This document shows, piece by piece, positions 6,807 through 64,000 of a stretch of DNA of 64,000 nt; within the stretch, counting starts at the first letter, position 1; every line of letters begins with the position of its first letter. The translations under genes were made by a program, and so were the position numbers. The stretch covers positions 62,261,504 to 62,325,503 of the forward strand of contig NC_090280.1 of the NCBI RefSeq assembly GCF_037392515.1. The letters run 5' to 3'. A model generated the notes under the pieces. The model made no database searches, was not told where the DNA came from, and saw only the letters and a list, made by a program, of their open reading frames with translations. This DNA comes from Haliotis asinina (taxonomy: Eukaryota > Mollusca > Gastropoda > Lepetellida > Haliotidae).

Positions 6807-7034
6807 GGCATAAGATATGATTCTTTGAAGTCTCTATTCATTTCTCATAATATTGATGCTGTCTTCAGTTAATTGGATATCTTGTAAACAGATAACCGAG
6901 TAACACTTTTCTAAACACATAAATACACGCATTCCTAACTTCCCCTTCTTTTGTTTTTATTCCCTAGTCCTCTACAGTTTGCTTAAATCATATCTTTCGA
7001 CATTTATTGTCTTAGGAAACTACTAGTAGCCTGC

Positions 7035-12654: not shown

Positions 12655-12800
12655 AGTACATACATAACCTCCACTTGAATATTCCTTACTAACCTCCACT
12701 TGAATATTCCTTACTAACCTCCATTTGAATACACCTCACCAACCTTCACTGGGATACAAATTACCAATCTCCACAAGAATGTACCTTACCAACCTCCTCC
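12655..12800 (-). repeat. Minisatellite, about 27-bp unit
   Basis: Five or so diverged copies of AACCTCCACTTGAATATTCC-type units; on the minus strand the unit reads GGAGGTTGGTAAGGTATATTC. It is the same family as the array at 63480-64000. It lies 3' of lectin gene A. 12810-13740 next to it shows nothing I recognise. Confidence 0.75.
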
Positions 12801-14480: not shown

Positions 14481-16252
14481 CAGTATATAATCTTATAGCC
14501 AAACACCTGCACCTCACAAAACTGCAGAACATCAGTTCGACGGTTTTTTTTCTTTCCGCTAACTCTCAGATAACGACCAGCCACAAGTGAAACACAGTGT
14601 ATGGTAACTGTCTTGCCGGGTTCTTTGACTGCACCATTGTACATGTAACACAACTGTCTTGTGACCTTTGGATGGTAGCGAGGGTCGGCTTCTAACACAT
14701 CCAGTGCAAAATCGTGAAGACGGTCGGCTGAAAACAATATTAAAATGTTTTTAATATATAATAACCTAATTTTATACACACACCCCCACACACCCACACC
14801 ACACCCCACACCCCAACACACACACACATCGATCCGGAGAGTCTACCAGTAGGGATTGGGATCGGAGGCAAATCTTCCAAATGTGTCGAATTTTGAATAC
14901 GTGCATTTGGTAACGACCCTTTTAAGAATGAATGTTAATATTACGACAACAGTCTTTTCTGCTTGTGACATCAACTTCCACGATGATGTAGACGTCTGCT
15001 AGGTCCACGAGCCACCAAGGTGACATATCACCACTGGCAACGGCAAAACAGGATCCGCTAGACCAAATGGCTGTGCCTTTCCCGTCGACTGCCGCGTCGG
15101 CCCGAACACGTCGGGTATACGTACTGCTTGCATACGCTGTCTTATTCTCGGCAATGTTAGACAGTTCGTCGTCTGTAAGAAATAAAAGCGAGAAAAACTC
15201 TTTTCTTTTCGACAAGAGATCTCTGTCAGAGCCGATCTTACGATTACAGCTATATTATGAGCATGTGAACATACCTACATACACACACACACAGACACAC
15301 AGACACACAGACACACACACACAGACAGAACACAGACAGACAGACAGACAGACACACACAGAGACAGACACACACACACAGACACAGACACAGACCCAGA
15401 CACACACAGACATACATTAAATCTGAATAAATCACATATATACGGTTGTATGGATGCACAAATTCTGTTGAACTTAAAGTTGAATTTGTAAGGTTTTCAG
15501 AAATGACAAGATCGCCTTAAATTAACAGATCATGTTGTAGACGGATTCATGACACACATTCCTTTTACGCTTGCAGTATTCTACCAATGCAAATTTGAAC
15601 CTTCATGAAATTAATGTACAATCTGAAGCACTTAACTCACAAATACAGGCTTACCACAGCGTATGGCACCATGCCTCTGTATGTTGCATCTCTGCCTAAA
15701 TGTACATGGCTTGTCCTGACAACGCCCAAGTGCGGTCTGGAACATGGACTATATAACAGTGAGTGAGTGAGGGAGTTGGCTTTTACCCCACTTTTAAATA
15801 ATTTTTGGCATTGTCATGGTGACTATAAATGAAATATCAAGTCGTGTTGCATAAGCATTGTATTAAACCGTATATGTAAATCAGTCATAATTTTACTCAA
15901 CGGTTGTTACAAATTCCATTACCTTGTTCCAGTTGATGATGGAACTGTATATGAAGTCGGTCTCTTTCTTTGACCCTTCCACACACTGTAGGTCATCACA
16001 ACCATTCAGGTGACACATCCTTCGTGCCACATCCAAATTGAAGGATTTGCATCCTCTATATGAAACACATTCAGCCGCACAGGAGAACAGAGATGACGAC
16101 GTGGAAATTTTAAAGGTTGATCCTGTTTGGCGTTTGGCATATTGCAGATCCAGCTCACAAGCATTTGTTAACCGCGCAAAGTATGTCAGTATCAGACAAC
16201 GAATACCAATTACTTCAAACTGCATAAAGCTGCTCAACGTTATGGAACTCAT
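14481..16252 (-). CDS. Lectin gene A: secreted PAN/apple plus FTP (F-type lectin) protein
   Basis: Four minus-strand exons: 16252-15923, 15736-15655, 15172-14945 and 14727-14481. Junctions are GT-AG with phases 0, 1 and 1; exon 4 leaves through TACTG|GTATGT, so a 3' exon is probably missing. Exon 1 encodes a hydrophobic leader (about residues 15-31) and a PAN/apple-like domain with [16 protein letters not shown] and [11 protein letters not shown]. Exon 2 is a short Cys-rich, partly EGF-like piece ([14 protein letters not shown]). Exons 3 and 4 make an FTP domain: [49 protein letters not shown], then DCCPDRLHDF across the junction, and [18 protein letters not shown] domains usually bind fucose and often act in innate recognition; the ligand here is unknown. 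No disruption is seen in these exons. Inverted paralogue of gene B. Confidence 0.8.
14774..14830 (+). repeat. CA-rich microsatellite in lectin A intron 3
   Basis: Imperfect (CA)n with C-rich interruptions, immediately upstream of the exon 4 acceptor on the minus strand. Confidence 0.85.
15279..15413 (+). repeat. CA/CAGA microsatellite in lectin A intron 2
   Basis: Imperfect ACACAC and ACAGACAC tract of about 135 bases. It accounts for the low-complexity ORFs on both strands here, which are not genes. Confidence 0.9.
15755..15805 (-). repeat. SINE family 1 tail fragment in lectin A intron 1
   Basis: GTGAGTGAGTGAGGGAGTTGG followed by a degenerate CTTTTACCCCACTTTTAAATA tail. Intron 1 of gene A is only about 186 bases. 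Confidence 0.45.
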
Positions 16253-23999: not shown

Positions 24000-25573
24000 A
24001 AATGACTGTGAAGAGTTGTTTTTGACACAGGCGAAACATTGTGAAAAATCTCAAACTGACGACGACGATTTCTTATTCCGCTTCGGTGAGCCTTTGTCAG
24101 AAGAAATAGTACAAGCTAAATTGGATGACAATCTGCCAAAAAGTACGAAAAGGGAAAAACGAATGGGCCTTGTCGTTATTTAGGGGAGAGAATGCAGCGT
24201 TCAGTGAGTGACAAAATTTATCTTACTTCAGGCTGTTTAACAAAGAGAATTGAACACATGTTTGAAATACTTCTTGTGTGAAGTCAGGAAGAATGATGGA
24301 AGCCATTACCCCTCAACTTCGCTGTATGCAATATTCTCTTCTTTCTCATCTGCCTTAAAAGCTTCATGTTCGAAGTTCATTTTTTTAGGATGATAGTTTC
24401 AGCGACGCTAGAAAATGTCTTGACTGCGTGATGAAGGAAAGGTCAGCTGCTGGAATGGGGGCTTCGTCAAGAAAGCAGAGGGAAGCAATAAGTTTCGCCG
24501 AAGAAGAGACATTGTGGGAAACACAAGTCTTGGGAGACGATTCCCCTCAAAAACTTCTATGTTTAACCGGTAAAATTACAATTCATTTTAGTGCTACAAA
24601 ATTATCACAATAAAAACCCTTCTTTTCGTCAGTGGGGACGACAAAACTGCATTTACAATATCTTGTGACTTCTCATGCGTAAAGCACAGGTTTAATATTA
24701 AGAATAGATGTTAGAGGCAACAGGTACTGCATACTTTCGCTTTCGTTCTTTCAGGACTAAACATTGCACTACGTGGCAGGAGAGAGCATCGTAACCTCCG
24801 GACGCACAACAATCCGCAAATTCCTGGGACACACACTGATGACTTTAGGCGAAGGTACCTAAGATACGTTGAAGACGCCTCAAAAACGAACCCTGGAGGT
24901 TTGAAAAACCGCAAAGCTGTTCCAAAAGACCTAAGGGCGTATGAAAACCTGGCTAGACCAGAAATATCCAGAAATTTTGTTTTCGTCAAGAAAACAAAGA
25001 TGTTGATATCCAATATTCCTGTTTCTTTTAATTTCCAACAGCACTCCTAGTTGATAATGATATTCAATTTGTATTCACAGTCCGGAACTTTGTCCGGATA
25101 TCACCAAGGACGCATTTTATTTGACATCACTGAAGATCCAGAAACCGTGCAACGGGTTCACCAGTATCCCAGTTGGACACAACACCCTGCAAGAAACTGT
25201 CAAAAGTATCTGCACTTCCGCTAGTATACGTGGCAAGAAGACCAACCATTCGCTACGGGCGACTGCGGCCACATGGCTGTATCAAGCCAACGTTGATGAA
25301 CAAACAATCTGCGAACACACAGGTCACAGGAGCGAAGCGGTTCGGATCTACAAGAGAACGAGTGACGACAAGAAAGCTGCAGTTTCAGAAATACTCGCCA
25401 AATCCCGTAAACAAGAAACCTCTGCAAACACAGACGTGCACAAGATGTCCAAAACGGCAGTAAATCCGATAAAGAAGGATGTCTCCAAAATCACCAGAGA
25501 GAGTTCAGCAGAAACCGATGTTACCAACATCGGCATGAAATCACGTCTTGTAATCGTCTTTAATTTCAATTAG
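24000..25573 (+). pseudogene. Crypton-like (DUF3504) tyrosine recombinase sequence, decayed
   Basis: Plus-strand pieces follow the order of the DUF3504 family (as in QRICH1 and ZMYM-type proteins). They are KSTKR (about 24140), FLCEVRKNDGSHYPSTSLYA (about 24275), DDSFSDARKCLDCVMKERSA with WETQVLGDDSPQKLL (24389-24569), LNIALRGRREHRNLRT (24755 on), then SIPVGHNTLQETVKS and the catalytic part. That part has TNHSLRATAATWLY (His and Arg), ICEHTGHRSEAVRIYKR (His and Tyr) at 25121-25573. A GT-AG intron at about 24570-24754 joins in frame (LLCLTG). Several other frame breaks suggest decay. It derives from Crypton-type DNA transposons, so it may be a host-gene relic or an element copy. Only the 150-residue last ORF is intact. 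Confidence 0.65.
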
Positions 25574-26429: not shown

Positions 26430-27725
26430 CAGTATGGTTCAAAATTATTGAGAATAGCTAAAGCATTTCATATTATTAAACGAGAACAAATCAGATAAAA
26501 TTGAATGTATTGTGAAAGTGAACTGACCTTTTCATGTTGTGTAGGTAACAATTTAATATTTTATCAAGTCTCCTTGAGCTTCACGGCACAGTCTAAGACG
26601 GGTAGGCATACTTCCTATCAGAGAGGTTAGTGTTTCGTGAGTTATGCTGTCACAGTATCGGACCACTTCTCTCTTCATGTCTTCAATTTCTGTCAACCCC
26701 TTTTGATTCACACATTCCTTCATCATCCCCCAAATGTTCTCAATGGGATTAAGTCAGGACTATATGCAGGAAATGGTAATGCAGTCACATTTTTCTCCTG
26801 AAAGCACTGCTTGGCATGTTTTGCGATGTGTTTAGGATCATTATCTTGCTGCAAAATCCAGTCATTTCCATAAAACACATGTGCACTTGGAAGGAGAAAA
26901 TTATCTAATATGTTAGTGTAGCGTTGACTTGTCAGATTTCCCTCAAACACACACAGCGGGGTCGTTCCTAATAAGGATATCCCTCCCCATACATGAAACT
27001 TTGGGCTGTATTTAGGTCGTTGATACAACGGTGCTGATGCAGACTTTGTCCATATTTTCACATTATTGGGATATACCCATATTGAGCTTTCATCAGTAAA
27101 AATCACATTTTCCCAGTCAAAGTTTTCATGTGCCAAACACCACTCAACACGCCTGTCTTTATGTTCTTGTTTCATGAGAGGAGAAGGAATTCCAGTCTTT
27201 TTCTCCCATCCAAGATCAATCAAATTTCTTCTAACTGTAGATTTTGATACAACTGTTGATCCCCTTTCTATCATTTCATACCTGATGTTGGAGATGCTTG
27301 CCCTTTGCTTTTTAGACGCTAAAATTCCCAGCCGGACGCGATCTGAGAAGTCCAATTTTCTGGGTCTCCCTGCTCCTTTCTGGTGCCCCAAATCCTTTCC
27401 CTCTTTAAAATTTTTCCTAATCCTATACACAGTAGAAAGAGGAGTTCCTGTTCTCTCTGCCAACGTATTTACATCATCAATTCCTTGATTACACAACTCA
27501 AAAATCAACCTTCTTTTATCTTCAGCAGACATTGTTGACAGTGCTGAGGAAAATGACGTCTGCTACAAATTCAGGGGAGGTAACTCTAATTGTACTATAC
27601 TCAGTAGGCCAAGATGAGTTACCTCCCTTATACCATTACTTAGTTTTAAGTATCAGTGAATCAGTTGAGGTGTTAGGATAGCTCAAAGTAAGAAGAAAAA
27701 TTCTCAATAATTATGAACCAGACTA
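26430..27725 (-). mobile_element. mariner/Tc1-like transposon, nearly intact
   Basis: TIRs: the left end reads CAGTATGGTTCAAAATTATT and the right, on the minus strand, TAGTCTGGTTCATAATTATT, both continuing GAGAAT. TA flanks both sides (26428-26429 and 27726-27727). The 1296-bp element contains one transposase gene on the minus strand with a single frame break. Confidence 0.88.
26553..27532 (-). pseudogene. mariner/Tc1-like transposase with one frameshift
   Basis: From ATG at 27532: MSAEDKRRLIFELCNQG starts an N-terminal HTH, then the hinge GAGRPRKL and a second HTH (SKSTVRRNLIDLGW). First catalytic Asp is in IFTDESSIWV, second in LQQDNDPKH. After YSPDL one base is missing at about 26752 (expected Leu-Asn-Pro, read Leu-Ile-Pro), so the open frame stops at 26723. 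The other frame continues with ENIWGMMKECVNQKG and ends at TAA 26553 (REAQGDLIKY). The third acidic residue would be the Glu of PIEN, 34 residues after the second Asp. It differs clearly in sequence from the Tc1 copy at 7890. Confidence 0.9.
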
Positions 27726-33724: not shown

Positions 33725-35150
33725 CTTGTAAGGTGACGTGAGGGGTGGAGTCAGTATCTGTATGCTTGGTGACGTGAGGGGGTGTAGTCAATATTTGTAT
33801 GTTTGGGGACGTGAAGAGTGGTGTCACTATCTGTATGCTTGGTGACGTGAGTGATGGTACTCTCGGTATGCTTAGTGACGTTAGGAGGTGGAGGCAATAG
33901 CTGTATGCTTGGTGACGCGAAGAGTGGTGTCACTATCTGTATGTTTGGTGACGTGAGGAGTTCTGTCACTATGTGTTTGCAAGGTGACCTTAGGCGTGGA
34001 GTGAGTATTTGTATGCAAGGTAACTTGAGGGGTGGGGTCATGGTGACGTATGCTTTATGACTTGAGTAGTGGTGTCACTATCTATATGTTTGGTGACGTG
34101 AGGGGATGGTGACAGTATGCATGCAAGGTGACTTGAGGAATGTTGTTACTATCTGTATGCTTGGTGACGTAAGGGTTGGATTCACCATCTGTATGCTTGG
34201 TGACGTGAGGGGTGGAGTCATCATCTGTATGCTTGGTGACGTGAGGGGTGGAGTCATCATCTGTATGCTTGGTGACGTAAGGGGTGGAGTCATCATCTGT
34301 ATGCTTGGTGACGTAAGGGGTGGAGTCACCATCTGTATGCTTGGTGACGTAAGGGGTGGAGTCATCATCTGTATGCTTGGTGACGTAAGAGGTGGAGTCA
34401 CCATCTGTATACTAGGTGACGTGAAGAGTGGTGTCATCATCTGTATGCTTGGTGACGTAAGGGGTGGAGTCATCATCTGTATGCTTGGTGACGTGAGGGG
34501 TGGAGTCATCATCTGTATACTAGGTGACGTAAGGGGTGGAGTCATCATCTGTATGCTTGGTGACGTAAGGGGTGGAGTCACCATCTGTATGCTTGGTGAC
34601 GTGAGGGGTGGAGTCATCATCTGTATGCTTGGTGACGTGAGGGGTGGAGTCATCATCTGTATACTAGGTGACGTAAGGGGTGGAGTCACCATCTGTATAC
34701 TATGTGACGTGAAGAGTGGTGTCATCATCTGTATGCTTGGTGACGTGAGGGTGGAGTCATCATCTGTATGCTTGGTGACGTGAGGGGTGGAGTCATCATC
34801 TGTATGCTTGGTGACGTGAGGGGTGGAGTCATCATCTGTATACTAGGTGACGTGAAGAGTGGTGTCATCATCTGTATGCTTGTGACGTAAGGGTTGGAGT
34901 CACCATCTGTATGCTTGGTGACGTGAGGGGTGGAGTCATCATCTGTATGCTTGGTGACGTGAGGGGGGGAGTCACCATCTGTATGCTTGGTGACGTAAGG
35001 GGTGGAGTCACCATCTGTATGCTTGGTGACGTGAGGGTGGAGTCATCATCTGTATACTAGGTGACGTGAAGAGTGGTGTCATCATCTGTATGCTTGGTAA
35101 CGTGAAGAGCAGTGTCATCATCTGTATGCTTGGTGACTTGAGTGGTACCA
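33725..35150 (+). repeat. 36-bp minisatellite overlapping the GPCR 3' end
   Basis: About 39 copies of TCTGTATGCTTGGTGACGT plus GAGGGGTGGAGTCATCA, diverged below about 34130 and regular above. The period is a multiple of three, so long ORFs are open on both strands (34106-34783 plus, 34078-34728 minus); these are repeat artefacts. Each unit holds TGACGT(G/A)A, a CRE-like half site. A recurring variant, GTATACTAGGTGACG instead of GTATGCTTGGTGACG, creates TAG in one minus-strand frame. The upper end encodes the last 26 residues of the GPCR. Confidence 0.93.
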
Positions 35151-36346
35151 TGAGCTTGGTCAGTGACGGGATAGCCTGGAGTGATTGTGTTTGGTTTGGG
35201 CCGTGTGTGCTGCGAGGACTGTGACGAACCACACTGTATGCGCTTCTGTTCGCTGCTGTCTTGAGAGCTCGCCGTTTTACTCTCACGTCTGGAGAACGAC
35301 TTCTTCACAGCACGCCGGAAATTGAGTCCGCAGATGCTGTAGATGATGGGATTGGAGGCACTGTTGATGAAGTAGCATCTAAGCAGTATGTTGTTTAAGG
35401 CAATCTGGGCTGTTGGAAGGTTGTCGAATAAGTTGGAATACTTGCTGGCAATCATGATTCCAAAATGAGGCACAAAACTAAGAAGGTAAACGAGGCTGAT
35501 GAGGAACATCGTGACCGTTCTCTGTCGAACTGCATTCCGTTTGTGTGATGTCATGGACTTCCGTCTTGAAAACACGTCGGATTCAGAAGCTGTCCTCTTC
35601 CGCTTCAATTTCCCTACTTTCTCGCACCCAGTATGATCCTTCTCAAGGGTGGCCTCATTAGGAATATATCCACTGGTGGATGCCGCCCTGAATCTTGTTT
35701 GTTTGGACAGTTGATACCATATAAGGGAATACACTACAACCACCGTGATAAACACGACAACAAAAATCACAAGAATGACACCGTTAAAGTAAAGGGGAGC
35801 CAGTTCCCCAGCCTTATCGGATATACTGCACAGTGAAACGTTCACGCTTCCGTAGTCTATGGTCCTTGGTCCATAAATAAACACGCATGGGATAGACAGG
35901 ATGCACGAGGCAACACAACATATCCCTATGGACAGTTTGGCTCCATATGCTGTCATTTGTCTATGTAAAGGTCGACACACCCGTCTGTATCTGTCTAAAG
36001 TCATTGGAAACAGAATCATTGCTGACGACAGCGAAATCAAATTGTTTGTCACTGCCTTGACGTAGCACACTTTGTACGTGCCTATGGTGTAGCGGTGCGA
36101 CAAATGAAACATGTCAAAAGGGATGTTTGTAATGCAGTTGACTAAATCAAAGACCCCAAGAGCCAGGATAAAGTTGGCGAAGGCGTTGGTTCGTCCGATC
36201 TTGAACAGATACACGTAGCAGACCAGTAAGTTGCCCACGCATCCTACCAGCATTATAATTCCGAGGAAGAAGATGGCAGGCAGAGCTTTGATTGCATAGT
36301 CATAGTTACGGTTGGTTAAATACTCAGGAAAGATATCTGGAGACAT
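35057..36346 (-). CDS. Class A (rhodopsin-like) GPCR, orphan
   Basis: 429 residues on one coding exon. Seven hydrophobic segments: TM1 about 20-48 with GNLLV, TM2 about 56-78 with LGVFDLVN, TM3 about 94-120 ending in DRY (118-120), TM4 about 137-158, TM5 about 184-212, TM6 about 277-300 and TM7 about 315-340 with NPIIY (332-336). Cys94 and Cys173 can form the usual extracellular disulfide. TM4 lacks the usual Trp, TM5 the usual Pro, and TM6 has SFVP instead of CWxP. A long basic third loop (about 213-275) and a Ser-rich tail suggest phosphorylation. Ligand unknown; a peptide receptor is plausible. The ATG is 9 bases after TTTTAACAG, an acceptor, so a 5' UTR or coding exon lies upstream. Residues 404-429 (VTKHTDDDTALH twice, then VT) are minisatellite-encoded. 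Confidence 0.88.
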   Translation of the reverse strand: MSPDIFPEYLTNRNYDYAIKALPAIFFLGIIMLVGCVGNLLVCYVYLFKIGRTNAFANFILALGVFDLVNCITNIPFDMFHLSHRYTIGTYKVCYVKAVTNNLISLSSAMILFPMTLDRYRRVCRPLHRQMTAYGAKLSIGICCVASCILSIPCVFIYGPRTIDYGSVNVSLCSISDKAGELAPLYFNGVILVIFVVVFITVVVVYSLIWYQLSKQTRFRAASTSGYIPNEATLEKDHTGCEKVGKLKRKRTASESDVFSRRKSMTSHKRNAVRQRTVTMFLISLVYLLSFVPHFGIMIASKYSNLFDNLPTAQIALNNILLRCYFINSASNPIIYSICGLNFRRAVKKSFSRRESKTASSQDSSEQKRIQCGSSQSSQHTRPKPNTITPGYPVTDQAHGTTQVTKHTDDDTALHVTKHTDDDTTLHVT

Positions 36347-36360
36347 TTCTGGAGTCTGTT

Positions 36361-49369: not shown

Positions 49370-49819
49370 CATCACCAATGTGTTAACGTTCTGTGGAAAC
49401 ACACTTTGAAAACGCTCATGGTCACGACTACTTTTGATTTTGAACAAATGGCAGTGTATCACAAAGTTGGTTCAGAGGGAGAAATGGTGTTAGAAGTAAT
49501 GGTGCTTAACTATTCGGTAGGCATTGCAGGATGGGAAAGGCAACATCGATTCCTTAGTCTTGACGTTATTTCTCTAAAAAGACAAATTCACCACATTTCC
49601 CTGTGGAACTCATCCATGACACAAACTGGTGTTATCTTTGGAGTAATCGTCGAAAAGACATTAAGCAACCCATAGCACTTCATAAGGTTATCTAGGAATA
49701 TATAATACATTTATGAACTTGATTTAGGTACATAGCTGAAACACATTTGAACAAGAAGAGATTCGGCTTTTCATTTCATTTGGAAGGTTCTGTGCAACAC
49801 AAACGTTCATACTGGAAGC
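49370..49819 (+). promoter_or_regulatory. Upstream region of lectin gene B
   Basis: Aligns in inverted orientation with 16253-16800. The last 120 bases (from ATATATAATACATTTATGAAC at about 49698) recur at the start of every array unit, so each unit brings its own copy of the proximal upstream sequence, including a TATA-like ATATATCATAC about 120 bases before the ATG. Confidence 0.5.
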
Positions 49820-50149
49820 ATGAGTTCCACAACGTTGAGCAGCTTTATGCAATTTGAAGCAATTGGTATTCGTTGTCTGATACTGACATACTTTGCGCAG
49901 TTAACAAGTGCTTGTGAGCTGGATCTGCAATATGGTAAACGCCAAACAGGATCAACCTTTAAAATTTCCACACCGTCATCTCTGTTCTCCTGTGCGGCTG
50001 AATGTGTTTCATATAGAGTATGCAAATCCTTCAATTTTGATGTGGCACGAAGGACGTGTCACCTGAATGGTTGTGATGACCTACAGTGTCTGGAAGGGTC
50101 AAAGAAAGAGACCGACTTCATATACAGTTCCATCATCAACTGGAACAAG
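49820..50149 (+). CDS. Lectin B exon 1, unit 1 (intact donor)
   Basis: 110 codons then AAG|GTAATG, phase 0. Hydrophobic leader [16 protein letters not shown], then Cys-rich PAN/apple-like domain. Most diverged copy: FAQLTSA, LQYGKRQ and TPSSLFSC where the others have IARLTSA, LQYAKRQ and TSLSLFSC; it is closer to gene A in keeping FKIST. If unspliced, the frame ends after 123 residues. Confidence 0.85.
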
Positions 50150-53100
50150 GTAATGGAATTTGTAATAACCGTTGAGTACAATTATGACTGATGTACGTTT
50201 ATATGTTTTAATACAATTCATATACAACACGAATTGATATCTGCTATATTCAATCAATCTGTTATTCCGTACACAAAGGCCACAGGCCTATCGTGCAATA
50301 CATAGTAGTAATATACAGAAGGATTGTATACATGTATACAGTATTATCTGATAATATGTTGTTCTACAACTGTGACGTTCAGACGATGCTCGATGGCGAT
50401 TAGATTCTTGAGAAGCATTCAGAAGTTGGTATTGAAGTAAAGACAAATAATGTGGATGACAACTTCTTGTTTATTATTTACAATCCACCTGACGACGGGG
50501 CAAGGAATATAGCCCAGAAAGGGTGTGACATACAAAACAAGAAGTTTTAATCCACATTAATTGTCTTCACTTCGATGGCGATTCTTCTTTTGTGAGTTTC
50601 ATAGGATGATATATAAACATAGCAACATTCTGAATCATATCATGGTTATTGCAGTTTAACAGGGAGTACAATATATCCATGAATGGGTGGGCATCATAAT
50701 ATTCTTGAAGTTACTATTTACCTAGTTTATCATACAATGAACATGCAAGCAGACAGATTTTCTAAGGCATTACTATTACATGATTTACATGACCTATCTT
50801 CTCTTCTTATCTTCATAAATCTACCTTTTCTAATCCACATATCATGTGGTGAGCAGCCAAAATGTGTTGAACGTACTTAACGTAATGTTTTTATCGTGAT
50901 ACATGCAGATATAAAAGTATGACTTAAAGGATGCGTAGTAATCACATTTCGAAGAAATGAAAAGGGACTTTTTTGAAGTCAGTTCTGTTGGCATATGTAA
51001 ATCTGAAATCTTTGTGTAAATAAACTAATTAACGTTGAGAGAAACACAACATACTGCTCATACCACATGTGATTAAGAATGTTGTAAATAAAGGATTTTT
51101 TCACATTCGTTACTCAATATCCATTTCTATCATATAAAGTCATCATATCGTCACTATTCTTTGGTAATGGATGAGAGGACATACGTAAAAGTCTTAGCCA
51201 ACATTCGGATATATCATACATTTATGAACTTGACTTAGGTACATACACGGAACACACTGGAACAAGAAGAGATTAGGCTTTTCATTTCATTTGGAAGGTT
51301 CTGTGCAACACAAACGTTCATACTGGAAGCATGAGTTCCACAACGTTGAGCAGCTTTATGCAATTTGAAGCAATTGGTATTCGTTGTCTGATACTGACAT
51401 ACATTGCGCGGTTAACAAGTGCTTGTGAGCTGGATCTGCAATATGCCAAACGCCAAACAGGATCAACCTTTAATATTTCCACGTCGTTATCTCTGTTCTC
51501 CTGTGCGGCTGAATGTGTTTCATATAGAGTATGCAAATCCTTCAATTTTGATGTGGCACGAAGGACGTGTCACCTGAACGGTTGTGATGACCTACAGTGT
51601 CTGGAAGGGTCAAAGAAAGAGACCGACTTCATATACAGTTCCATCATCAACTGGAACAAGATAATGGAATTTGTAATAACCGTTGAGTACAATTATGACT
51701 GATGTACGTTTATATGTTTTAATACAATTCATATACAACACGAATTGATATCTGCTATATTCAATCAATCTGTTATTCCGTACACAAAGGCCACAAGCCT
51801 ATCGTACAATACATAGTAGTAATATACAGAAGGATTGTATACAAGTATACAGTATTATTTGATAATATGTTGTTCTACAACTGTGACGTTCAGACGATGC
51901 TCGATGGCGATTAGATTCTTGAGAAGCATTCAGAAGTTGGTATTGAAGTAAAGACAAATAATGTGGATGACAACTTCTTGTTTATTATTTACAATCCACC
52001 TGACGACGGGGCAAGGAATATAGCCCAGAAAGGGTGTGACATACAAAACAAGAAGTTTTAATCCACATTAATTGTCTTCACTTCGATGGCGATTCTTCTT
52101 TTGTGAGTTTCATAGGATGATATATAAACATAGCAACATTCTGAATCATATCATGGTTATTGCAGTTTAACAGGGAGTACAATATATCCATGAATGGGTG
52201 GGCATCATAATATTCTTGAAGTTACTATTTACCTAGTTTATCATACAATGAACATGCAAGCAGACAGATTTTCTAAGGCATTACTATTACATGATTTACA
52301 TGACCTATCTTCTCTTCTTATCTTCATAAATCTACCTTTTCTAATCCACATATCATGTGGTGAGCAGCCAAAATGTGTTGAACGTACTTAACGTAATGTT
52401 TTTATCGTGATACATGCAGATATAAAAGTATGACTTAAAGGATGCGTAGTAATCACATTTCGAAGAAATGAAAAGGGACTTTTTTGAAGTCAGTTCTGTT
52501 GGCATATGTAAATCTGAAATCTTTGTGTAAATAAACTAATTAACGTTGAGAGAAACACAACATACTGCTCATACCACATGTGATTAAGAATGTTGTAAAT
52601 AAAGGATTTTTTCACATTCGTTACTCAATATCCATTTCTATCATATAAAGTCATCATATCGTCACTATTCTTTGGTAATGGATGAGAGGACATACGTAAA
52701 AGTCTTAGCCAACATTCGGATATATCATACATTTATGAACTTGACTTAGGTACATACGCGGAACACACTGGAACAAGAAGAGATTAGGCTTTTCATTTCA
52801 TTTGGAAGGTTCTGTGCAACACAAACGTTCATACTGGAAGCATGAGTTCCACAACGTTGAGCAGCTTTATGCAATTTGAAGCAATTGGTATTCGTTGTCT
52901 GATACTGACATACATTGCGCGGTTAACAAGTGCTTGTGAGCTGGATCTGCAATATGCCAAACGCCAAACAGGATCAACCTTTAATATTTCCACGTCGTTA
53001 TCTCTGTTCTCCTGTGCGGCTGAATGTGTTTCATATAGAGTATGCAAATCCTTCAATTTTGATGTGGCACGAAGGACGTGTCACCTGAATGGTTGTGATG

Positions 53101-56100
53101 ACCTACAGTGTCTGGAAGGGTCAAAGAAAGAGACCGACTTCATATACAGTTCCATCATCAACTGGAACAAGGTAATGGAATTTGTAATAACCGTTGAGTA
53201 AAATTATGACTGATGTACGTTTATATGTTTTAATACAATTCATATACAACACGAATTGATATCTGCTATATTCAATCAATCTGTTATTCCGTACACAAAG
53301 GCCACAGGCCTATCGTACAATACATAGTAGTAATATACAGAAGGATTGTATACATGTATACAGTATTATCTGATAATATGTTGTTCTACAACTGTGACGT
53401 TCAGACGATGCTCGATGGCGATTAGATTCTTGAGAAGCATTCAGAAGTTGGTATTGAAGTAAAGACAAATAATGTGGATGACAACTTCTTGTTTATTATT
53501 TACAATCCACCTGACGACGGGGCAAGGAATATAGCCCAGAAAGGGTGTGACATACAAAACAAGAAGTTTTAATCCACATTAATTGTCTTCACTTCGATGG
53601 CGATTCTTCTTTTGTGAGTTTCATAGGATGATATATAAACATAGCAACATTCTGAATCATATCATGGTTATTGCAGTTTAACAGGGAGTACAATATATCC
53701 ATGAATGGGTGGGCATCATAATATTCTTGAAGTTACTATTTACCTAGTTTATCATACAATGAACATGCAAGCAGACAGATTTTCTAAGGCATTACTATTA
53801 CATGATTTACATGACCTATCTTCTCTTCTTATCTTCATAAATCTACCTTTTCTAATCCACATATCATGTGGTGAGCAGCCAAAATGTGTTGAACGTACTT
53901 AACGTAATGTTTTTATCGTGATACATGCAGATATAAAAGTATGACTTAAAGGATGCGTAGTAATCACATTTCGAAGAAATGAAAAGGGACTTTTTTGAAG
54001 TCAGTTCTGTTGGCATATGTAAATCTGAAATCTTTGTGTAAATAAACTAATTAACGTTGAGAGAAACACAACATACTGCTCATACCACATGTGATTAAGA
54101 ATGTTGTAAATAAAGGATTTTTTCACATTCGTTACTCAATATCCATTTCTATCATATAAAGTCATCATATCGTCACTATTCTTTGGTAATGGATGAGAGG
54201 ACATACGTAAAAGTCTTAGCCAACATTCGGATATATCATACATTTATGAACTTGACTTAGGTACATACGCGGAACACACTGGAACAAGAAGAGATTAGGC
54301 TTTTCATTTCATTTGGAAGGTTCTGTGCAACACAAACGTTCATACTGGAAGCATGAGTTCCACAACGTTGAGCAGCTTTATGCAATTTGAAGCAATTGGT
54401 ATTCGTTGTCTGATACTGACATACATTGCGCGGTTAACAAGTGCTTGTGAGCTGGATCTGCAATATGCCAAACGCCAAACAGGATCAACCTTTAATATTT
54501 CCACGTCGTTATCTCTGTTCTCCTGTGCGGCTGAATGTGTTTCATATAGAGTATGCAAATCCTTCAATTTTGATGTGGCACGAAGGACGTGTCACCTGAA
54601 TGGTTGTGATGACCTACAGTGTCTGGAAGGGTCAAAGAAAGAGACCGACTTCATATACAGTTCCATCATCAACTGGAACAAGGTAATGGAATTTGTAATA
54701 ACCGTTGAGTAAAATTATGACTGATGTACGTTTATATGTTTTAATACAATTCATATACAACACGAATTGATATCTGCTATATTCAATCAATCTGTTATTC
54801 CGTACACAAAGGCCACAGGCCTATCGTACAATACATAGTAGTAATATACAGAAGGATTGTATACATGTATACAGTATTATCTGATAATATGTTGTTCTAC
54901 AACTGTGACGTTCAGACGATGCTCGATGGCGATTAGATTCTTGAGAAGCATTCAGAAGTTGGTATTGAAGTAAAGACAAATAATGTGGATGACAACTTCT
55001 TGTTTATTATTTACAATCCACCTGACGACGGGGCAAGGAATATAGCCCAGAAAGGGTGTGACATACAAAACAAGAAGTTTTAATCCACATTAATTGTCTT
55101 CACTTCGATGGCGATTCTTCTTTTGTGAGTTTCATAGGATGATATATAAACATAGCAACATTCTGAATCATATCATGGTTATTGCAGTTTAACAGGGAGT
55201 ACAATATATCCATGAATGGGTGGGCATCATAATATTCTTGAAGTTACTATTTACCTAGTTTATCATACAATGAACATGCAAGCAGACAGATTTTCTAAGG
55301 CATTACTATTACATGATTTACATGACCTATCTTCTCTTCTTATCTTCATAAATCTACCTTTTCTAATCCACATATCATGTGGTGAGCAGCCAAAATGTGT
55401 TGAACGTACTTAACGTAATGTTTTTATCGTGATACATGCAGATATAAAAGTATGACTTAAAGGATGCGTAGTAATCACATTTCGAAGAAATGAAAAGGGA
55501 CTTTTTTGAAGTCAGTTCTGTTGGCATATGTAAATCTGAAATCTTTGTGTAAATAAACTAATTAACGTTGAGAGAAACACAACATACTGCTCATACCACA
55601 TGTGATTAAGAATGTTGTAAATAAAGGATTTTTTCACATTCGTTACTCAATATCCATTTCTATCATATAAAGTCATCATATCGTCACTATTCTTTGGTAA
55701 TGGATGAGAGGACATACGTAAAAGTCTTAGCCAACATTCGGATATATCATACATTTATGAACTTGACTTAGGTACATACGCGGAACACACTGGAACAAGA
55801 AGAGATTAGGCTTTTCATTTCATTTGGAAGGTTCTGTGCAACACAAACGTTCATACTGGAAGCATGAGTTCCACAACGTTGAGCAGCTTTATGCAATTTG
55901 AAGCAATTGGTATTCGTTGTCTGATACTGACATACATTGCGCGGTTAACAAGTGCTTGTGAGCTGGATCTGCAATATGCCAAACGCCAAACAGGATCAAC
56001 CTTTAATATTTCCACGTCGTTATCTCTGTTCTCCTGTGCGGCTGAATGTGTTTCATATAGAGTATGCAAATCCTTCAATTTTGATGTGGCACGAAGGACG

Positions 56101-59100
56101 TGTCACCTGAATGGTTGTGATGACCTACAGTGTCTGGAAGGGTCAAAGAAAGAGACCGACTTCATATACAGTTCCATCATCAACTGGAACAAGGTAATGG
56201 AATTTGTAATAACCGTTGAGTAAAATTATGACTGATGTACGTTTATATGTTTTAATACAATTCATATACAACACGAATTGATATCTGCTATATTCAATCA
56301 ATCTGTTATTCCGTACACAAAGGCCACAGGCCTATCGTGCAATACATAGTAGTAATATACAGAAGGATTGTATACATGTATACAGTATTATCTGATAATA
56401 TGTTGTTCTACAACTGTGACGTTCAGACGATGCTCGATGGCGATTAGATTCTTGAGAAGCATTCAGAAGTTGGTATTGAAGTAAAGACAAATAATGTGGA
56501 TGACAACTTCTTGTTTATTATTTACAATCCACCTGACGACGGGGCAAGGAATATAGCCCAGAAAGGGTGTGACATACAAAACAAGAAGTTTTAATCCACA
56601 TTAATTGTCTTCACTTCGATGGCGATTCTTCTTTTGTGAGTTTCATAGGATGATATATAAACATAGCAACATTCTGAATCATATCATGGTTATTGCAGTT
56701 TAACAGGGAGTACAATATATCCATGAATGGGTGGGCATCATAATATTCTTGAAGTTACTATTTACCTAGTTTATCATACAATGAACATGCAAGCAGACAG
56801 ATTTTCTAAGGCATTACTATTACATGATTTACATGACCTATCTTCTCTTCTTATCTTCATAAATCTACCTTTTCTAATCCACATATCATGTGGTGAGCAG
56901 CCAAAATGTGTTGAACGTACTTAACGTAATGTTTTTATCGTGATACATGCAGATATAAAAGTATGACTTAAAGGATGCGTAGTAATCACATTTCGAAGAA
57001 ATGAAAAGGGACTTTTTTGAAGTCAGTTCTGTTGGCATATGTAAATCTGAAATCTTTGTGTAAATAAACTAATTAACGTTGAGAGAAACACAACATACTG
57101 CTCATACCACATGTGATTAAGAATGTTGTAAATAAAGGATTTTTTCACATTCGTTACTCAATATCCATTTCTATCATATAAAGTCATCATATCGTCACTA
57201 TTCTTTGGTAATGGATGAGAGGACATACGTAAAAGTCTTAGCCAACATTCGGATATATCATACATTTATGAACTTGACTTAGGTACATACGCGGAACACA
57301 CTGGAACAAGAAGAGATTAGGCTTTTCATTTCATTTGGAAGGTTCTGTGCAACACAAACGTTCATACTGGAAGCATGAGTTCCACAACGTTGAGCAGCTT
57401 TATGCAATTTGAAGCAATTGGTATTCGTTGTCTGATACTGACATACATTGCGCGGTTAACAAGTGCTTGTGAGCTGGATCTGCAATATGCCAAACGCCAA
57501 ACAGGATCAACCTTTAATATTTCCACGTCGTTATCTCTGTTCTCCTGTGCGGCTGAATGTGTTTCATATAGAGTATGCAAATCCTTCAATTTTGATGTGG
57601 CACGAAGGACGTGTCACCTGAACGGTTGTGATGACCTACAGTGTCTGGAAGGGTCAAAGAAAGAGACCGACTTCATATACAGTTCCATCATCAACTGGAA
57701 CAAGATAATGGAATTTGTAATAACCGTTGAGTACAATTATGACTGATGTACGTTTATATGTTTTAATACAATTCATATACAACACGAATTGATATCTGCT
57801 ATATTCAATCAATCTGTTATTCCGTACACAAAGGCCACAAGCCTATCGTACAATACATAGTAGTAATATACAGAAGGATTGTATACAAGTATACAGTATT
57901 ATTTGATAATATGTTGTTCTACAACTGTGACGTTCAGACGATGCTCGATGGCGATTAGATTCTTGAGAAGCATTCAGAAGTTGGTATTGAAGTAAAGACA
58001 AATAATGTGGATGACAACTTCTTGTTTATTATTTACAATCCACCTGACGACGGGGCAAGGAATATAGCCCAGAAAGGGTGTGACATACAAAACAAGAAGT
58101 TTTAATCCACATTAATTGTCTTCACTTCGATGGCGATTCTTCTTTTGTGAGTTTCATAGGATGATATATAAACATAGCAACATTCTGAATCATATCATGG
58201 TTATTGCAGTTTAACAGGGAGTACAATATATCCATGAATGGGTGGGCATCATAATATTCTTGAAGTTACTATTTACCTAGTTTATCATACAATGAACATG
58301 CAAGCAGACAGATTTTCTAAGGCATTACTATTACATGATTTACATGACCTATCTTCTCTTCTTATCTTCATATGTAAATCTGAAATCTTTGTGTAAATAA
58401 ACTAATTAACGTTGAGAGAAACACAACATACTGCTCATACCACATGTGATTAAGAATGTTGTAAATAAAGGATTTTTTCACATTCGTTACTCAATATCCA
58501 TTTCTATCATATAAAGTCATCATATCGTCACTATTCTTTGGTAATGGATGAGAGGACATACGTAAAAGTCTTAGCCAACATTCGGATATATCATACATTT
58601 ATGAACTTGACTTAGGTACATACGCGGAACACACTGGAACAAGAAGAGATTAGGCTTTTCATTTCATTTGGAAGGTTCTGTGCAACACAAACGTTCATAC
58701 TGGAAGCATGAGTTCCACAACGTTGAGCAGCTTTATGCAATTTGAAGCAATTGGTATTCGTTGTCTGATACTGACATACATTGCGCGGTTAACAAGTGCT
58801 TGTGAGCTGGATCTGCAATATGCCAAACGCCAAACAGGATCAACCTTTAATATTTCCACGTCGTTATCTCTGTTCTCCTGTGCGGCTGAATGTGTTTCAT
58901 ATAGAGTATGCAAATCCTTCAATTTTGATGTGGCACGAAGGACGTGTCACCTGAACGGTTGTGATGACCTACAGTGTCTGGAAGGGTCAAAGAAAGAGAC
59001 CGACTTCATATACAGTTCCATCATCAACTGGAACAAGATAATGGAATTTGTAATAACCGTTGAGTACAATTATGACTGATGTACGTTTATATGTTTTAAT

Positions 59101-62100
59101 ACAATTCATATACAACACGAATTGATATCTGCTATATTCAATCAATCTGTTATTCCGTACACAAAGGCCACAAGCCTATCGTACAATACATAGTAGTAAT
59201 ATACAGAAGGATTGTATACAAGTATACAGTATTATTTGATAATATGTTGTTCTACAACTGTGACGTTCAGACGATGCTCGATGGCGATTAGATTCTTGAG
59301 AAGCATTCAGAAGTTGGTATTGAAGTAAAGACAAATAATGTGGATGACAACTTCTTGTTTATTATTTACAATCCACCTGACGACGGGGCAAGGAATATAG
59401 CCCAGAAAGGGTGTGACATACAAAACAAGAAGTTTTAATCCACATTAATTGTCTTCACTTCGATGGCGATTCTTCTTTTGTGAGTTTCATAGGATGATAT
59501 ATAAACATAGCAACATTCTGAATCATATCATGGTTATTGCAGTTTAACAGGGAGTACAATATATCCATGAATGGGTGGGCATCATAATATTCTTGAAGTT
59601 ACTATTTACCTAGTTTATCATACAATGAACATGCAAGCAGACAGATTTTCTAAGGCATTACTATTACATGATTTACATGACCTATCTTCTCTTCTTATCT
59701 TCATAAATCTACCTTTTCTAATCCACATATCATGTGGTGAGCAGCCAAAATGTGTTGAACGTACTTAACGTAATGTTTTTATCGTGATACATGCAGATAT
59801 AAAAGTATGACTTAAAGGATGCGTAGTAATCACATTTCGAAGAAATGAAAAGGGACTTTTTTGAAGTCAGTTCTGTTGGCATATGTAAATCTGAAATCTT
59901 TGTGTAAATAAACTAATTAACGTTGAGAGAAACACAACATACTGCTCATACCACATGTGATTAAGAATGTTGTAAATAAAGGATTTTTTCACATTCGTTA
60001 CTCAATATCCATTTCTATCATATAAAGTCATCATATCGTCACTATTCTTTGGTAATGGATGAGAGGACATACGTAAAAGTCTTAGCCAACATTCGGTTAC
60101 TTTATTTTGCATATGTATAGTAAGAGGAATCGTAACGTATTCACCATTAATCATTACACTAGGCGCGCTCATCTTTAACTCTTTCTATTAGGTCAAAGTA
60201 TCGAAATCCCCAAATTTCAGCCCCGTATAACAGAACTGGACTACTTTTAACATCAAATGTTCTGAAGAGGGGTCGTAAGTTTAAATCTCCACGTACTTTT
60301 TTAAAAATTGTTTCAGTATACCTATCAACGCTTTTTGAGTTTGAATACTTTGCATGGTTTGACCAGGAAAGATGATTAGTAAAATATATTCCTAGGTATT
60401 TAAATGAGGTTGTTTGATTCAGCCTGAATGCCTTTATAATACCATTTTAAGTGTCGAGACAAGTTACCTCCTTTCTTGAAAGTAATTACTTTTGTTTTAT
60501 TCATGTTAACATTCGGCTTAGACTGTTCGCAATAGCGTTCTAATTCATTGATTTGCTCCTGAAGACTTATTTGTAATAAGGACAATGTCACCTCCAAACA
60601 GTGAAAAAAACCTTCTGGATGTAACCGAACACCGTTTCTACAATTATTTTCAGTTTGCATCACTAGTTATATTAGAAGTTATCTAAGAGCGGCGTAAAAG
60701 TAATCTCCCTGCTATAAAATCCATGTTACAGACCGCTCTTGGACGTTGCCAGGACAACCCATGTGCATTTAAGCACAGATGCAGCGTACAGAGGAATGGT
60801 GCCTTACGTTGTGGTAAGCCTGTATTTGTGAGTTAAGTGCAAACCAGCTTTTTCAAATTCCCGCAAGAATTCGCCCTTTTCCATTACCAGCTTTCAGCTA
60901 GCAGGAGAACAGCGAGAAGAAGCAAAACAGGATACAAACTCATCCACCACAATATTAATGCTCAATAATAACAAGAAAATGCCTACATGGCATCTGGACG
61001 GAATTGCAGTAAGGTATTAAAGTCACTATCATGCCACAAAGGGCTCCACCTGTCAGGTTGTCCAGACATCCAGGGACCCACAGAACCCTGGGCTCCAACC
61101 CTTGCTAGGTCCTATTTGCAACAAAGGCAAAATAGTTTAGTTCCCAAGGCAAGCAAACGGGATGGCTGGGTGGGAACACTTTCAAACCTTGCCTTCGGTT
61201 ACTCATAAAATTATGATTTCATGGCGCTCACTACATGAGCTGATGAAATCTACAATTTCATTTCGCAACCTTCGGCAAGATGTTAGTTTTAAGCTTACCT
61301 GCTCAAAACTGCCTGCTGGAACGTGTTGACCTCTGCAATACGACTTTCTGAAAGTTGATTGCTTTGACCAATTCGCCTTTTTCAGGATATCGCCAACTGA
61401 GATACTCTGACCCTGATTTAAGTGTTTCAGATTGTACATCAATGTCCTGAAGGTTAAAAATTGCATTGGTAGAATACTGCAAGCGCAATCATAACGTCGT
61501 CTCTGACACAGATTCTTTGTCAAAATGAAAGGAGTTTTCTCGCTTCTATTTCTTACAGACGAGGAACTGTCTAACATTGCCAAGAATAAGCCAGCGTATG
61601 CAAGCAGTACGTATAACCGACGTGTTCGGGCCGACGCGGCAGTCGACGGGAAAGTCACAGCCATTTGGTCTAGCCGATCCTGTTTTACCGTTGCCATTGG
61701 TGATATGTCACCTTGGTGGCTCGTGGACCTAGCAGACGTCTACATCATCGTGGAAGTTGATGTCACAAGCAGAAAAGACTGTTGTCGTAATATTAATATT
61801 CATTCTTAAAAGGGTCGTTACCAAATGCACGTGTTCAAAATTCGACACAATGGATGATTGCCATATAGCAATGGTCTGTTCGTTAACCATTAACGTTTAC
61901 TTTATGTTTATGAAACCATGGTGCTTCTTATATAGCGATGAAATGTAACATGTTATATACCGATGTGCAGAAGAAACCTGACATCTATAAAGTGGTAACA
62001 TTTTGTAGCAAACAATAAACACATGCTACGTTTTCATAGCAAAGAAAGATTGTAGGAAAACATCAGATATAGATAACAGTGAGTGAGTGATGACATATGT

Positions 62101-63093
62101 CAACCAAGTCAGCGACCCTGACCACCCGGTCCCGTCGATCGCGTCTTACATGCATAGTCACCTTTTATGGCAAGCTTGGGTTGCTGAAGGGCTATTCCAC
62201 CCGGGACCTTCACGGGTCGATATAGATAACAGTCAAGCGTACTTAATGCTGAGCCAGCGAAAGTCCGGGTTCGAATTGATCTTTTGCAACCAATGAGTAA
62301 GAGGTGACTAACGGGATCGGGTGGTCAGACATGCTGACACATGTCATTGTATCCCATTGTGAACATCGATGCTCATGCTGTTGATAACTGAACTGTCTGG
62401 TCCAGACTCGATTATTTACAAAACGCCACCATAGAGCTGGATTATTGCTGACTGGCGTTATACAAATCAGAAACAATTTTATGCCGCATCTTTCGATTTT
62501 GCGATAAAAATGTGAAAAATACCAAAACACCTGTTTGTCGTTACGTGCCATTTATGTGTGATTAATTGCAAAGACTAGTAATCCCACAAATTACCAAATT
62601 ACCGACTTTCTAAAAGACATTGTGTATTTATTGATCTTAACGATCCAAATAGTTGAGTGAGTGGGTGGGTGAGTGAGTGAATGAGTGAGTGAATGGGTAT
62701 GGTATTGCGCCGCTTTCACGGCCGTTTCACGGCGGGGTGCACTAGAAATGTATTTCTTGTATAATGTAGCCTTTACAGAATGTGGTTCGTTATTCAAGTG
62801 TACTAAAACCCTATCTACCACAAAAAAGGCTATATTTTGTTTTCAGCTGACCGTCTTCACGATTTTGCGCTGGAGGGTTTTGAAGCCGACCCTCGCTATC
62901 ATCCAAATATCACAAGACAGTTGTGTTACATGTACAATGATACAGTCACAGAACCCGGCAAGACAGTTACCATACACTGTGTTTCACCTGTGTCTGGTCG
63001 TTATCTGAGACTTAGCGGAAAGAAAAGAAGAGATGCACTTGATGTTCTGCAGTTTTGTGAGGTGCAGGTGTTTGGCTTCAAGATTAAATACTG
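49820..63093 (+). CDS. Lectin gene B: PAN/apple exon array plus FTP (F-type lectin) domain
   Basis: Secreted lectin gene. Seven alternative copies of exon 1 (listed separately) precede exon 2 (60732-60813), exon 3 (61559-61786) and exon 4 (62847-63093). Exon lengths 82, 228 and 247 and phases 0/1/1 equal those of gene A. One exon 1 copy gives about 295 residues before the exon 4 donor TACTG|GTATGT: signal peptide, PAN/apple domain (Cys-rich, about 32-96), Cys-rich linker GRCQDNPCAFKHRCSVQRNG, then FTP domain. FTP motifs: [63 protein letters not shown] spanning the exon 3/4 junction, RYLRLSG and FCEVQVFG. Fucose binding is usual for the family; the exact ligand residues were not assigned. The 3' end probably lies beyond the window. 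Confidence 0.78.
50428..50580 (+). repeat. Structured inverted repeat, present in every array unit
   Basis: Left arm GAAGTAAAGACAAATAATGT, GGATGACAACTTCTTGTTT pairs with the right arm AACAAGAAGTTTTAATCCAC, ATTAATTGTCTTCACTTC. An inner CCACCTGACGACGGGGC ... GCCCAGAAAGGGTG makes a second stem. It recurs at the same offset in units 2-7 and is not found in gene A. Possibly a small MITE or retroelement end captured before amplification. Confidence 0.75.
51331..51660 (+). CDS. Lectin B exon 1, unit 2 (donor GT changed to AT)
   Basis: Coding sequence as in other units but AACAAG|ATAATGG replaces AACAAG|GTAATGG, removing the normal donor. Reads on as IMEFVITVEYNYD to a stop at 123 residues. A GTAATA 12 bases downstream could act as an in-frame substitute donor. 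Confidence 0.85.
52842..53171 (+). CDS. Lectin B exon 1, unit 3 (intact donor)
   Basis: Signal peptide plus PAN/apple exon with AAG|GTAATGG donor; unspliced frame stops at 119 residues (GTTGAGTAA). Confidence 0.88.
54353..54682 (+). CDS. Lectin B exon 1, unit 4 (intact donor)
   Basis: Same translated exon as unit 3, with the same donor and 119-residue unspliced frame. Confidence 0.88.
55864..56193 (+). CDS. Lectin B exon 1, unit 5 (intact donor; last splice-competent copy)
   Basis: Same translated exon as units 3 and 4. Its intronic CCTATCGTGCAATAC matches unit 1 rather than units 3 and 4 (CGTACAAT). It is the copy nearest to exon 2 that keeps a GT donor, about 4.5 kb away. Confidence 0.88.
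57375..57704 (+). CDS. Lectin B exon 1, unit 6 (donor AT; unit carries 178-bp deletion)
   Basis: Same type as unit 2: AAG|ATAATGG, AACGG for AATGG, and 123-residue unspliced frame. The deletion lies downstream at about 58372, outside the exon. Confidence 0.85.
58708..59037 (+). CDS. Lectin B exon 1, unit 7 (donor AT; nearest to exon 2)
   Basis: Same type as units 2 and 6. Although physically closest to exons 2-4 it has ATAATGG at the donor, so canonical splicing from this copy should fail unless the GTAATA 12 bases on is used. Confidence 0.85.
60130..60663 (-). pseudogene. LINE relic, RT C-terminal part
   Basis: Minus strand: LQEQINELERYCEQSKPNVN then MNKTKVITFKKGGNLSRHLK (60650-60450), then in another frame YLGIYFTNHLSWSNHAKY, FKKVRGDLNLRPLFRTFDVK and LLYGAEIWGFRYFDLIERVK down to about 60180. 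This is the RT palm/thumb end of a non-LTR retrotransposon. At least one frame change; 5' part absent. It lies in intron 1 of gene B right after the exon array. Confidence 0.75.
60843..61420 (-). mobile_element. Insertion in lectin B intron 2 with a tyrosine-recombinase tail (fossil)
   Basis: Gene A and gene B introns match on both sides, and gene B has about 580 extra bases between TTAAGTGC and TTAAGTGT. On the minus strand the right part encodes SISVGDILKKANWSKQSTF, typical of the C-terminal end of a tyrosine recombinase of DIRS- or Crypton-type elements. It is a short, broken fragment. Confidence 0.45.
62077..62220 (-). repeat. SINE family 2, in lectin B intron 3
   Basis: GTGAGTGAGTGATGACATATGT (tail deleted), TCAACCAAGTCAGCGACCC, CAAGCTTGGGTTGCTGAAGG, CCGGGACCTTCACGGGTCG. 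Confidence 0.85.
62290..62470 (+). repeat. SINE family 2, in lectin B intron 3
   Basis: GTAAGAGGTGACTAACGGGA, CATCGATGCTCATGCTGTTG, AGACTCGATTATTTACAAAA, tail AGAGCTGGATTATTGCTGAC. Confidence 0.85.
62652..62750 (-). repeat. SINE family 1 fragment, in lectin B intron 3
   Basis: Repeated GTGAGTGAGTGAATGAGTG followed by TTGCGCCGCTTTCACGGC and CGGCGGGGTGCACTAGAAATG; head missing. Confidence 0.6.
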
Positions 63094-63479: not shown

Positions 63480-64000
63480 AGGCTGGTAAGGTGTATCCAA
63501 GTTGAGGTTAGTAAGGTGTATTCAAGTGGAGTTTGGTAGATTGTTTTCAGGTGGGAAGGTAAATTCAAGTGGAGTTTGGCAAGGTGTATTCAAGTGGTAA
63601 GGTGTATTCAACTGGATGTTGATAAGGTGTATTCAAGTGGTAAGGTGTATTCAAGTGGAGGTTGGTAAGGTATATTCAAGTAGAGGTTGGAAAGGTGTCT
63701 TCAAGTGGGAAGGTATTTTGAAGTGGAGGTTGGCAAGGTGTATTCAAGTGGCAAGGTATATTCAAGTTGAGGCTCGCAAAGTTTATTCAAGTGATAAGGT
63801 GTATTCAAATGGAGGTTGATAAGGTGTATTCAAGTGGGAAGGTATATTCTAGTGGAGGTTGGCAAGGTGTATTCACGTGGTAAGGAGGTTGGTAAGGTGT
63901 CTTCAGATGGGAAGGTATATTGAAGTGGAATTTGGCAAGGTGTTTTGAATTGGAGGTTGGTAAGGTGTATTCATGTAGGAAGGTATATCCAAGTGGAGGT
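63480..64000 (+). repeat. Minisatellite, about 27-bp unit, runs off the window
   Basis: Many variable units of GGAGGTTGGTAAGGTGTATT plus CAAGT, with shortened forms lacking GGAGGTT. Same family as 12655-12800, in the same orientation relative to the neighbouring lectin gene. ORFs here are artefacts. Confidence 0.93.

Follow-up and report, generated by a model that had tools for sequence, protein, structure and literature searches.

Seven tandem copies of a first exon upstream of single-copy lectin exons in a PAN–F-type-lectin gene of Haliotis asinina

In PEP1 of Arabis alpina, two copies lie about 6.3 kb apart, and both start transcripts that are spliced to a shared exon 2 (PMC3527215). At the UGT1 locus, every first exon has a separate promoter, and the first exons diverge by birth-and-death evolution (PMC1885805). 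A literature search found no report joining an F-type lectin with a PAN domain, none treating the intragenic tandem duplication of a first exon and promoter together with copy number, and nothing on the locus described here. Whether repeated first exons begin as useful additions or as passengers is hard to tell once the copies have aged. The locus analysed here, contained in a window of 64,000 nucleotides from the abalone Haliotis asinina, could bear on that question through its two splice classes of first exon, an edge that seemingly records an older duplication, and downstream exons that occur only once.

The abalone locus, gene B, resembles PEP1 (PMC3527215) in carrying tandem copies of exon 1, with portions of the promoter region and of intron 1, ahead of a single series of downstream exons, and in that the copies can encode identical proteins. 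It differs in having seven homogenised copies, three of them without the ancestral splice donor. With UGT1 and the protocadherins it shares an array of first exons followed by single constant exons, and UGT1 first exons likewise encode a signal peptide plus an N-terminal domain; unlike those of UGT1, however, units 2–7 of gene B are identical in protein and appear to evolve in concert, and three units are without the ancestral donor (PMC1885805 for UGT1). The preliminary description had likened the locus to a protocadherin- or UGT1-like diversity cluster. This could not be upheld: the ancestral donor was lost in three of the seven units, units 2–7 encode one peptide, and unit 1 alone retains an unaltered TATA-like motif together with the flank beyond −122.

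Gene B, a PAN–F-type-lectin gene, is intact and has five exons (Table 1); its stop codon TGA is created across the exon 4/5 junction. The predicted product, which is probably secreted, comprises in order a signal-peptide-like stretch (judged by eye), a PAN_1 domain, a Cys-rich linker and an F-type lectin domain. PAN_1 scored 26.2 bits on exon 1 alone (cut-off 21.4) and 20.4 bits, slightly below the cut-off, on the spliced protein, and it matched 16 of 16 family exons at E <= 0.001. The lectin domain matched PF22633 with 55.8 bits (cut-off 27.8) and the solved F-type lectins 3cqo (E 7.7e-21) and 1k12 (E 3.5e-13). A structure model of exon 1, built from three window sequences, had a mean pLDDT of 42.5, which is too low to use. 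We take the fucose site of F-type lectins to be a His together with the motif R-x-D-C-C...R. The sequence RKDCCPDR is present, but the His is replaced by Thr in the third exon of gene B and by Ala in that of the inverted paralogue, gene A. Among nine fetched relatives the His was kept in five and lost in four, pointing to possible alteration or loss of the sugar site on more than one occasion. Gene A has a single exon 1 and a short intron 1 without the dispersed repeat found in gene B, and otherwise has the structure of gene B. The two genes differ by dN 0.073 and dS 0.063; positive selection between them was considered but is not shown, the dN/dS of 1.15 (48 and 12 changes, Fisher P 0.75) being indistinguishable from neutral change.

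Table 1 Positions of the first-exon array, gene B, gene A and associated repeats in the window
Feature	Position	Strand	Remarks
Tandem array, seven units	49698..60096	+
Conserved proximal flank	49610..49697	+	Before unit 1 only; conserved with gene A
Unit 1	49698..51208	+	TATATAATA retained; donor GT; exon 1 CDS 49820-50149
Unit 2	51209..52719	+	Donor AT; exon copy 51331-51660
Unit 3	52720..54230	+	Donor GT; exon copy 52842-53171
Unit 4	54231..55741	+	Donor GT; no difference from unit 3 in 1511 bp; exon copy 54353-54682
Unit 5	55742..57252	+	Donor GT; exon copy 55864-56193
Unit 6	57253..58585	+	1333 bp, 178-bp intronic deletion; donor AT; exon copy 57375-57704
Unit 7	58586..60096	+	Donor AT; exon copy 58708-59037; closest unit to exon 2
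Dispersed LINE-like repeat, unit 1 copy (part)	50250..51208	.	Likeness to copies elsewhere in the genome
Hairpin element nested in the unit 1 repeat	about 50431-50576
Ancestral continuation of the repeat, right of unit 7	60097 to at least about 60345
Gene B exon 1 (unit 1)	49820-50149	+	330 nt; signal-peptide-like stretch and PAN_1; phase 0 out
Gene B exon 2	60732..60813	+	82 nt; Cys-rich; phase 0 in, phase 1 out
Gene B exon 3	61559..61786	+	228 nt; F-type lectin domain, first half; phase 1 out
Gene B exon 4	62847..63093	+	247 nt; F-type lectin domain, second half; phase 2 out
Gene B exon 5	64208 (window numbering), just past the window	+	3′-UTR exon, completes TGA; placed by likeness to gene A
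Gene A, inverted paralogue	14481..16252	-	Exons 16252-15923, 15736-15655, 15172-14945, 14727-14481

The coordinates bear out the anatomy given in the preliminary description, seven tandem units upstream of single-copy lectin exons, and the array exceeds chance by far. The exact 1511-bp period claimed there was found in five of the six intervals between unit starts, but the interval from unit 6 to unit 7 is 1333 bp, unit 6 having a 178-bp deletion in its intronic part with a 4-bp overlap at the break. In a full unit, a 330-bp signal-peptide-like/PAN exon is preceded by 122 bp of 5′ flank and followed by 1059 bp of intron 1; the proximal upstream sequence ascribed to each unit is thus present, but amounts to only those 122 bp before the ATG. 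A signal-peptide-like/PAN exon is indeed carried by every unit, PAN_1 having been scored on units 1 and 2 and the peptide of units 3–7 being that of unit 2. The near-identity reported for units 2–7 was likewise found (0–8 substitutions in pairwise comparison), and their expansion was rightly called recent.

Units 2–7 encode one identical 110-residue PAN peptide, and the peptide of unit 1 departs from it at 6 positions; the array offers two protein versions, no repertoire. Units 3 and 4 are the same throughout, units 6 and 7 are identical over their shared 1333 bp, and unit 2 is one change away from units 6 and 7. Units 2–7 form two classes, with units 2, 6 and 7 (0–1 differences over shared bases) interleaved with units 3, 4 and 5, an arrangement that needs exchange rather than simple stepwise copying. 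The exon base at 50068 (unit 1 numbering) distinguishes the two classes. The differences private to unit 1 are confined to its 5′ part: all 17, of which 8 fall in the exon, occur within the first 280 bp, and the following 1231 bp are free of them (Fisher P 2e-13, post hoc). Over those 280 bp, units 1 and 2 differ at 17 positions, gene A and unit 1 at 18, and gene A and unit 2 at 11; when polarised by gene A, 12 changes fall on unit 1 and 5 on units 2–7, a difference that is not significant (P 0.14). The 5′ divergence of unit 1 from units 2–7 is close to that of gene A from gene B, and therefore at least two versions may have persisted for a long time. The simplest account would be an old first duplication, whose left edge unequal crossing-over could not replace, followed by repeated turnover of the rest. 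Counter to this account, the right end of unit 7 carries no matching old divergence, there being no variable column beyond position 651 of 1511, and conversion involving gene A is possible as an alternative contributor.

The right break of the array was located by comparison with copies of the dispersed repeat elsewhere in the genome. Of 15 fetched copies, 13 extend over the 60096/60097 boundary by a minimum of 10 bases, and the junction of units 1 and 2 is crossed by none. The right break therefore falls within the repeat, the right edge of unit 7 is followed by the ancestral continuation, and the junctions between units are new joints. Most of the fetched copies begin with an ATCA-type run. 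The continuation looks reverse-transcriptase-like, from which we infer a LINE-like element; a Pfam search of peptides from the continuation gave no match. Transposon-borne amplification of the units was considered, as the repeat matches had seemed to stop near the unit edge (most at 51205), and was rejected in view of the 13 copies that continue. As regards other mobile elements in the window, an open Tc1/Tc3-type transposase frame of 402 aa (HTH_Tnp_Tc3_2, DDE_3) lies at 7707–8915 on the plus strand and a second Tc1/Tc3-type frame at 26723–27562 on the minus strand, and a tyrosine-recombinase C-terminal piece (Phage_integrase) at 25061–25573 on the plus strand is perhaps a Crypton- or DIRS-like remnant.

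The preliminary description had called the exons all phase-compatible, which is true of the reading frame but not of the splice site. Judged from sequence rather than RNA, the ancestral donor, as a route to the constant exons, is present in only four of the seven first exons: GT follows exon 1 in units 1, 3, 4 and 5, and AT in units 2, 6 and 7, including the unit nearest to exon 2. The same phase-0 GT donor was kept in gene A and in 13 of 13 paralogous PAN exons, fetched as the top-ranking of 49 matches that lay neither in the array nor in gene A. These exons belong to PAN-lectin genes of C7, C2 and C16; in one of them the GT sits one codon beyond the end of the match. The order of exons was observed in gene A and, for the genes of C7, C2 and C16, is inferred from neighbouring PAN and lectin matches. 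Further GT dinucleotides were scored with a splice-site frequency table. A weak fallback GT 12 nt downstream of the exon-1 donor is in frame (four extra residues) in all seven units and scored −0.95, compared with −0.4 for the genes' own exon-3 donor. Another GT, at +43, scored 5.2 versus 7.5 for the lost donor; it lies beyond the read-through stop after exon 1 (intron bases 40–42, or 28–30 in unit 3) and therefore cannot restore the lectin frame. As predicted splice sites, the donors of units 2, 6 and 7 are certainly weakened and probably dead, the latter being not proven because the fallback GT is in frame and scores near the exon-3 donor.

Upstream of the array, the 88-bp flank of unit 1, when aligned with gene A, has 5 differences in 79 bases (9 gap columns), compared with 128 in 514 (117 gap columns) in the stretch farther upstream. 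This suggests constraint on the 88-bp flank, although the pattern would also arise if the two stretches had unequal histories. The left break, at −122, falls at a TATA-like motif, which reads TATATAATA in unit 1 and gene A and TATATCATA in units 2–7. Each of units 2–7 thus has 122 bp of copied flank with an altered TATA-like motif, and another TATAAA at −198 that is missing from unit 1. A TATA-like hexamer within 350 bp is absent from 11 of the 13 paralogues, and loss of the motif at −121 therefore may not matter.

Taken together, we give a little better than an even chance to the reading that unit 1 serves as the functional first exon and that units 2–7 are passengers, lying in an enlarged intron 1 and held alike through unequal exchange. 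The anatomy, the breakpoints, the near-identity and the changes in splice sites and TATA-like motifs were observed directly; the course of events would be as follows. The dispersed repeat would have sat in intron 1 of gene B before the array formed, and a segment beginning shortly before the 5′ UTR, spanning exon 1 and ending within the repeat would have been duplicated in tandem and spread to seven units by unequal exchange. Transcription would start at unit 1, the sole bearer of the conserved flank. Because first exons carry a donor but lack an acceptor, the unit 1 transcript would splice past units 2–7, across about 10.6 kb, to exon 2 at 60732; units 2–7, inside intron 1 and without a conserved acceptor, would be skipped and would be homogenised by unequal exchange or conversion. 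The passenger reading is favoured because of the donor losses, set against retention of GT in gene A and all fetched paralogues, the conserved flank confined to unit 1, and polyadenylation motifs at chance level; the changed TATA-like motif, the single peptide of units 2–7, the right break within the dispersed repeat and the signs of concerted evolution also support it. Against it, the start codon and open frame are kept in all seven units, although the units are too young for open frames to be a test of selection, and the 5′ divergence of unit 1 may mean long persistence of at least two versions. If only unit 1 is used, the locus is a warning to annotators against calling an alternative-first-exon cluster or counting seven genes.

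The retained GT of units 3, 4 and 5, the fallback GT of units 2, 6 and 7 and the TATAAA at −198 also speak against passengers, and they would fit a somewhat unlikely reading in which units 3, 4 and 5, and perhaps 2, 6 and 7 through the fallback GT, act as extra alternative starts, each bearing a core promoter and spliced to exon 2, raising dosage or shifting the expression pattern with the protein nearly unchanged. Units 3–5 keep phase 0 and the 122-bp flank for such a role, and PEP1 (PMC3527215) is a duplicate of this kind working as an alternative start. However, the TATA-like motif is altered, the conserved upstream 88 bp are missing, three of the seven units are without the ancestral donor, and identical copies would give no added protein diversity. 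Some units, chiefly 2, 6 and 7, might instead read into the intron, stop after 119–123 residues and be polyadenylated at an AATAAA 0.7–0.9 kb past the exon, yielding short secreted PAN-only proteins; this seems very unlikely. The read-through frames are open and end 9 or 13 codons beyond exon 1, and exon 1 alone passes the PAN_1 cut-off. The AATAAA motifs noted in the preliminary description are there, two in each unit, but they are supplied by the dispersed repeat and show no excess (0.9 expected, P 0.25); in addition, the changes among units 2–7 are too few to show selection, and the promoter doubts just raised apply here as well.

The copy number of seven rests on one genome assembly, and the identity of unit 3 with unit 4 and of unit 6 with unit 7 would suit an assembly artefact with a true array shorter or longer. 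This is improbable, given that unit-specific marks (the 178-bp deletion, the two interleaved classes and the divergent unit 1) speak against copying by the assembler, and that a list of 80 matches, for which 40 of 490 first-look candidates were scored, contained no further copy of the exon part besides gene A. Least credible, and hardly to be expected, is the use of the units as cassette exons, in which an acceptor-like site located 33 bp upstream of every ATG would create 363-nt frame-keeping internal exons and multi-PAN proteins. The site, CTTTTCATTTCATTTGGAAG at −33, scored 2.2, inside the range of the genes' own acceptors (−1.1 to 8.1), and the 33 + 330 nt are open with phase 0-0. Nevertheless, such a score is at chance level within 250 bp (P 0.37), the site has no common position in the 13 paralogues, and every inserted exon would bring a signal-peptide-like stretch. 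On the same two grounds of chance-level score and inconstant position, the PAN exon as an internal exon after a 5′-UTR intron was rejected. A combined view, a variable-first-exon locus caught at birth, is quite unlikely: units 3–5 would be extra starts or frame-keeping cassettes (giving dosage or multi-PAN lectins), units 2, 6 and 7 would give short PAN-only secreted proteins, and unequal exchange would shuffle both classes between individuals.

Egg_lysin (PF01303), a family of abalone-type egg lysins, matched above its cut-off in this genome and in 0 of 14 control genomes, and contig sizes fall from 49.7 Mb (C16) to 3.7 Mb (C17), which we read as an abalone genome of 16 chromosomes. Outside the window, the lectin family seems to expand through duplication of whole genes. 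In a list of 57 matches, for which 150 of 166 candidates were scored, no second tandem array of PAN exons was found. The region C7:12.18-12.26 Mb contains seven PAN exons; the lectin exon matches there comprise six of the first half and seven of the second, some with internal stops. Three near-identical PAN exons there, at C7:12228798, 12240020 and 12251245, are spaced by 11,222 and 11,225 bp with lectin exons nearby, and are probably recent whole-gene tandem copies.

Several minisatellites were also noted in the window. One lies in intron 4 of gene B, from 63484 to 64000 and onward past the window end, and a shorter relative occupies the equivalent place in gene A, near 12800–12670. Another, at 5254–6833, can be read in long open frames in either direction, of 368 aa on the plus and 510 aa on the minus strand, likely due to the unit length. 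A rhodopsin-type receptor frame (35057–36358) on the minus strand, within 34078–36358, has a tail that resembles an adjoining minisatellite, which has units of about 36 bp by eye and is open on both strands.
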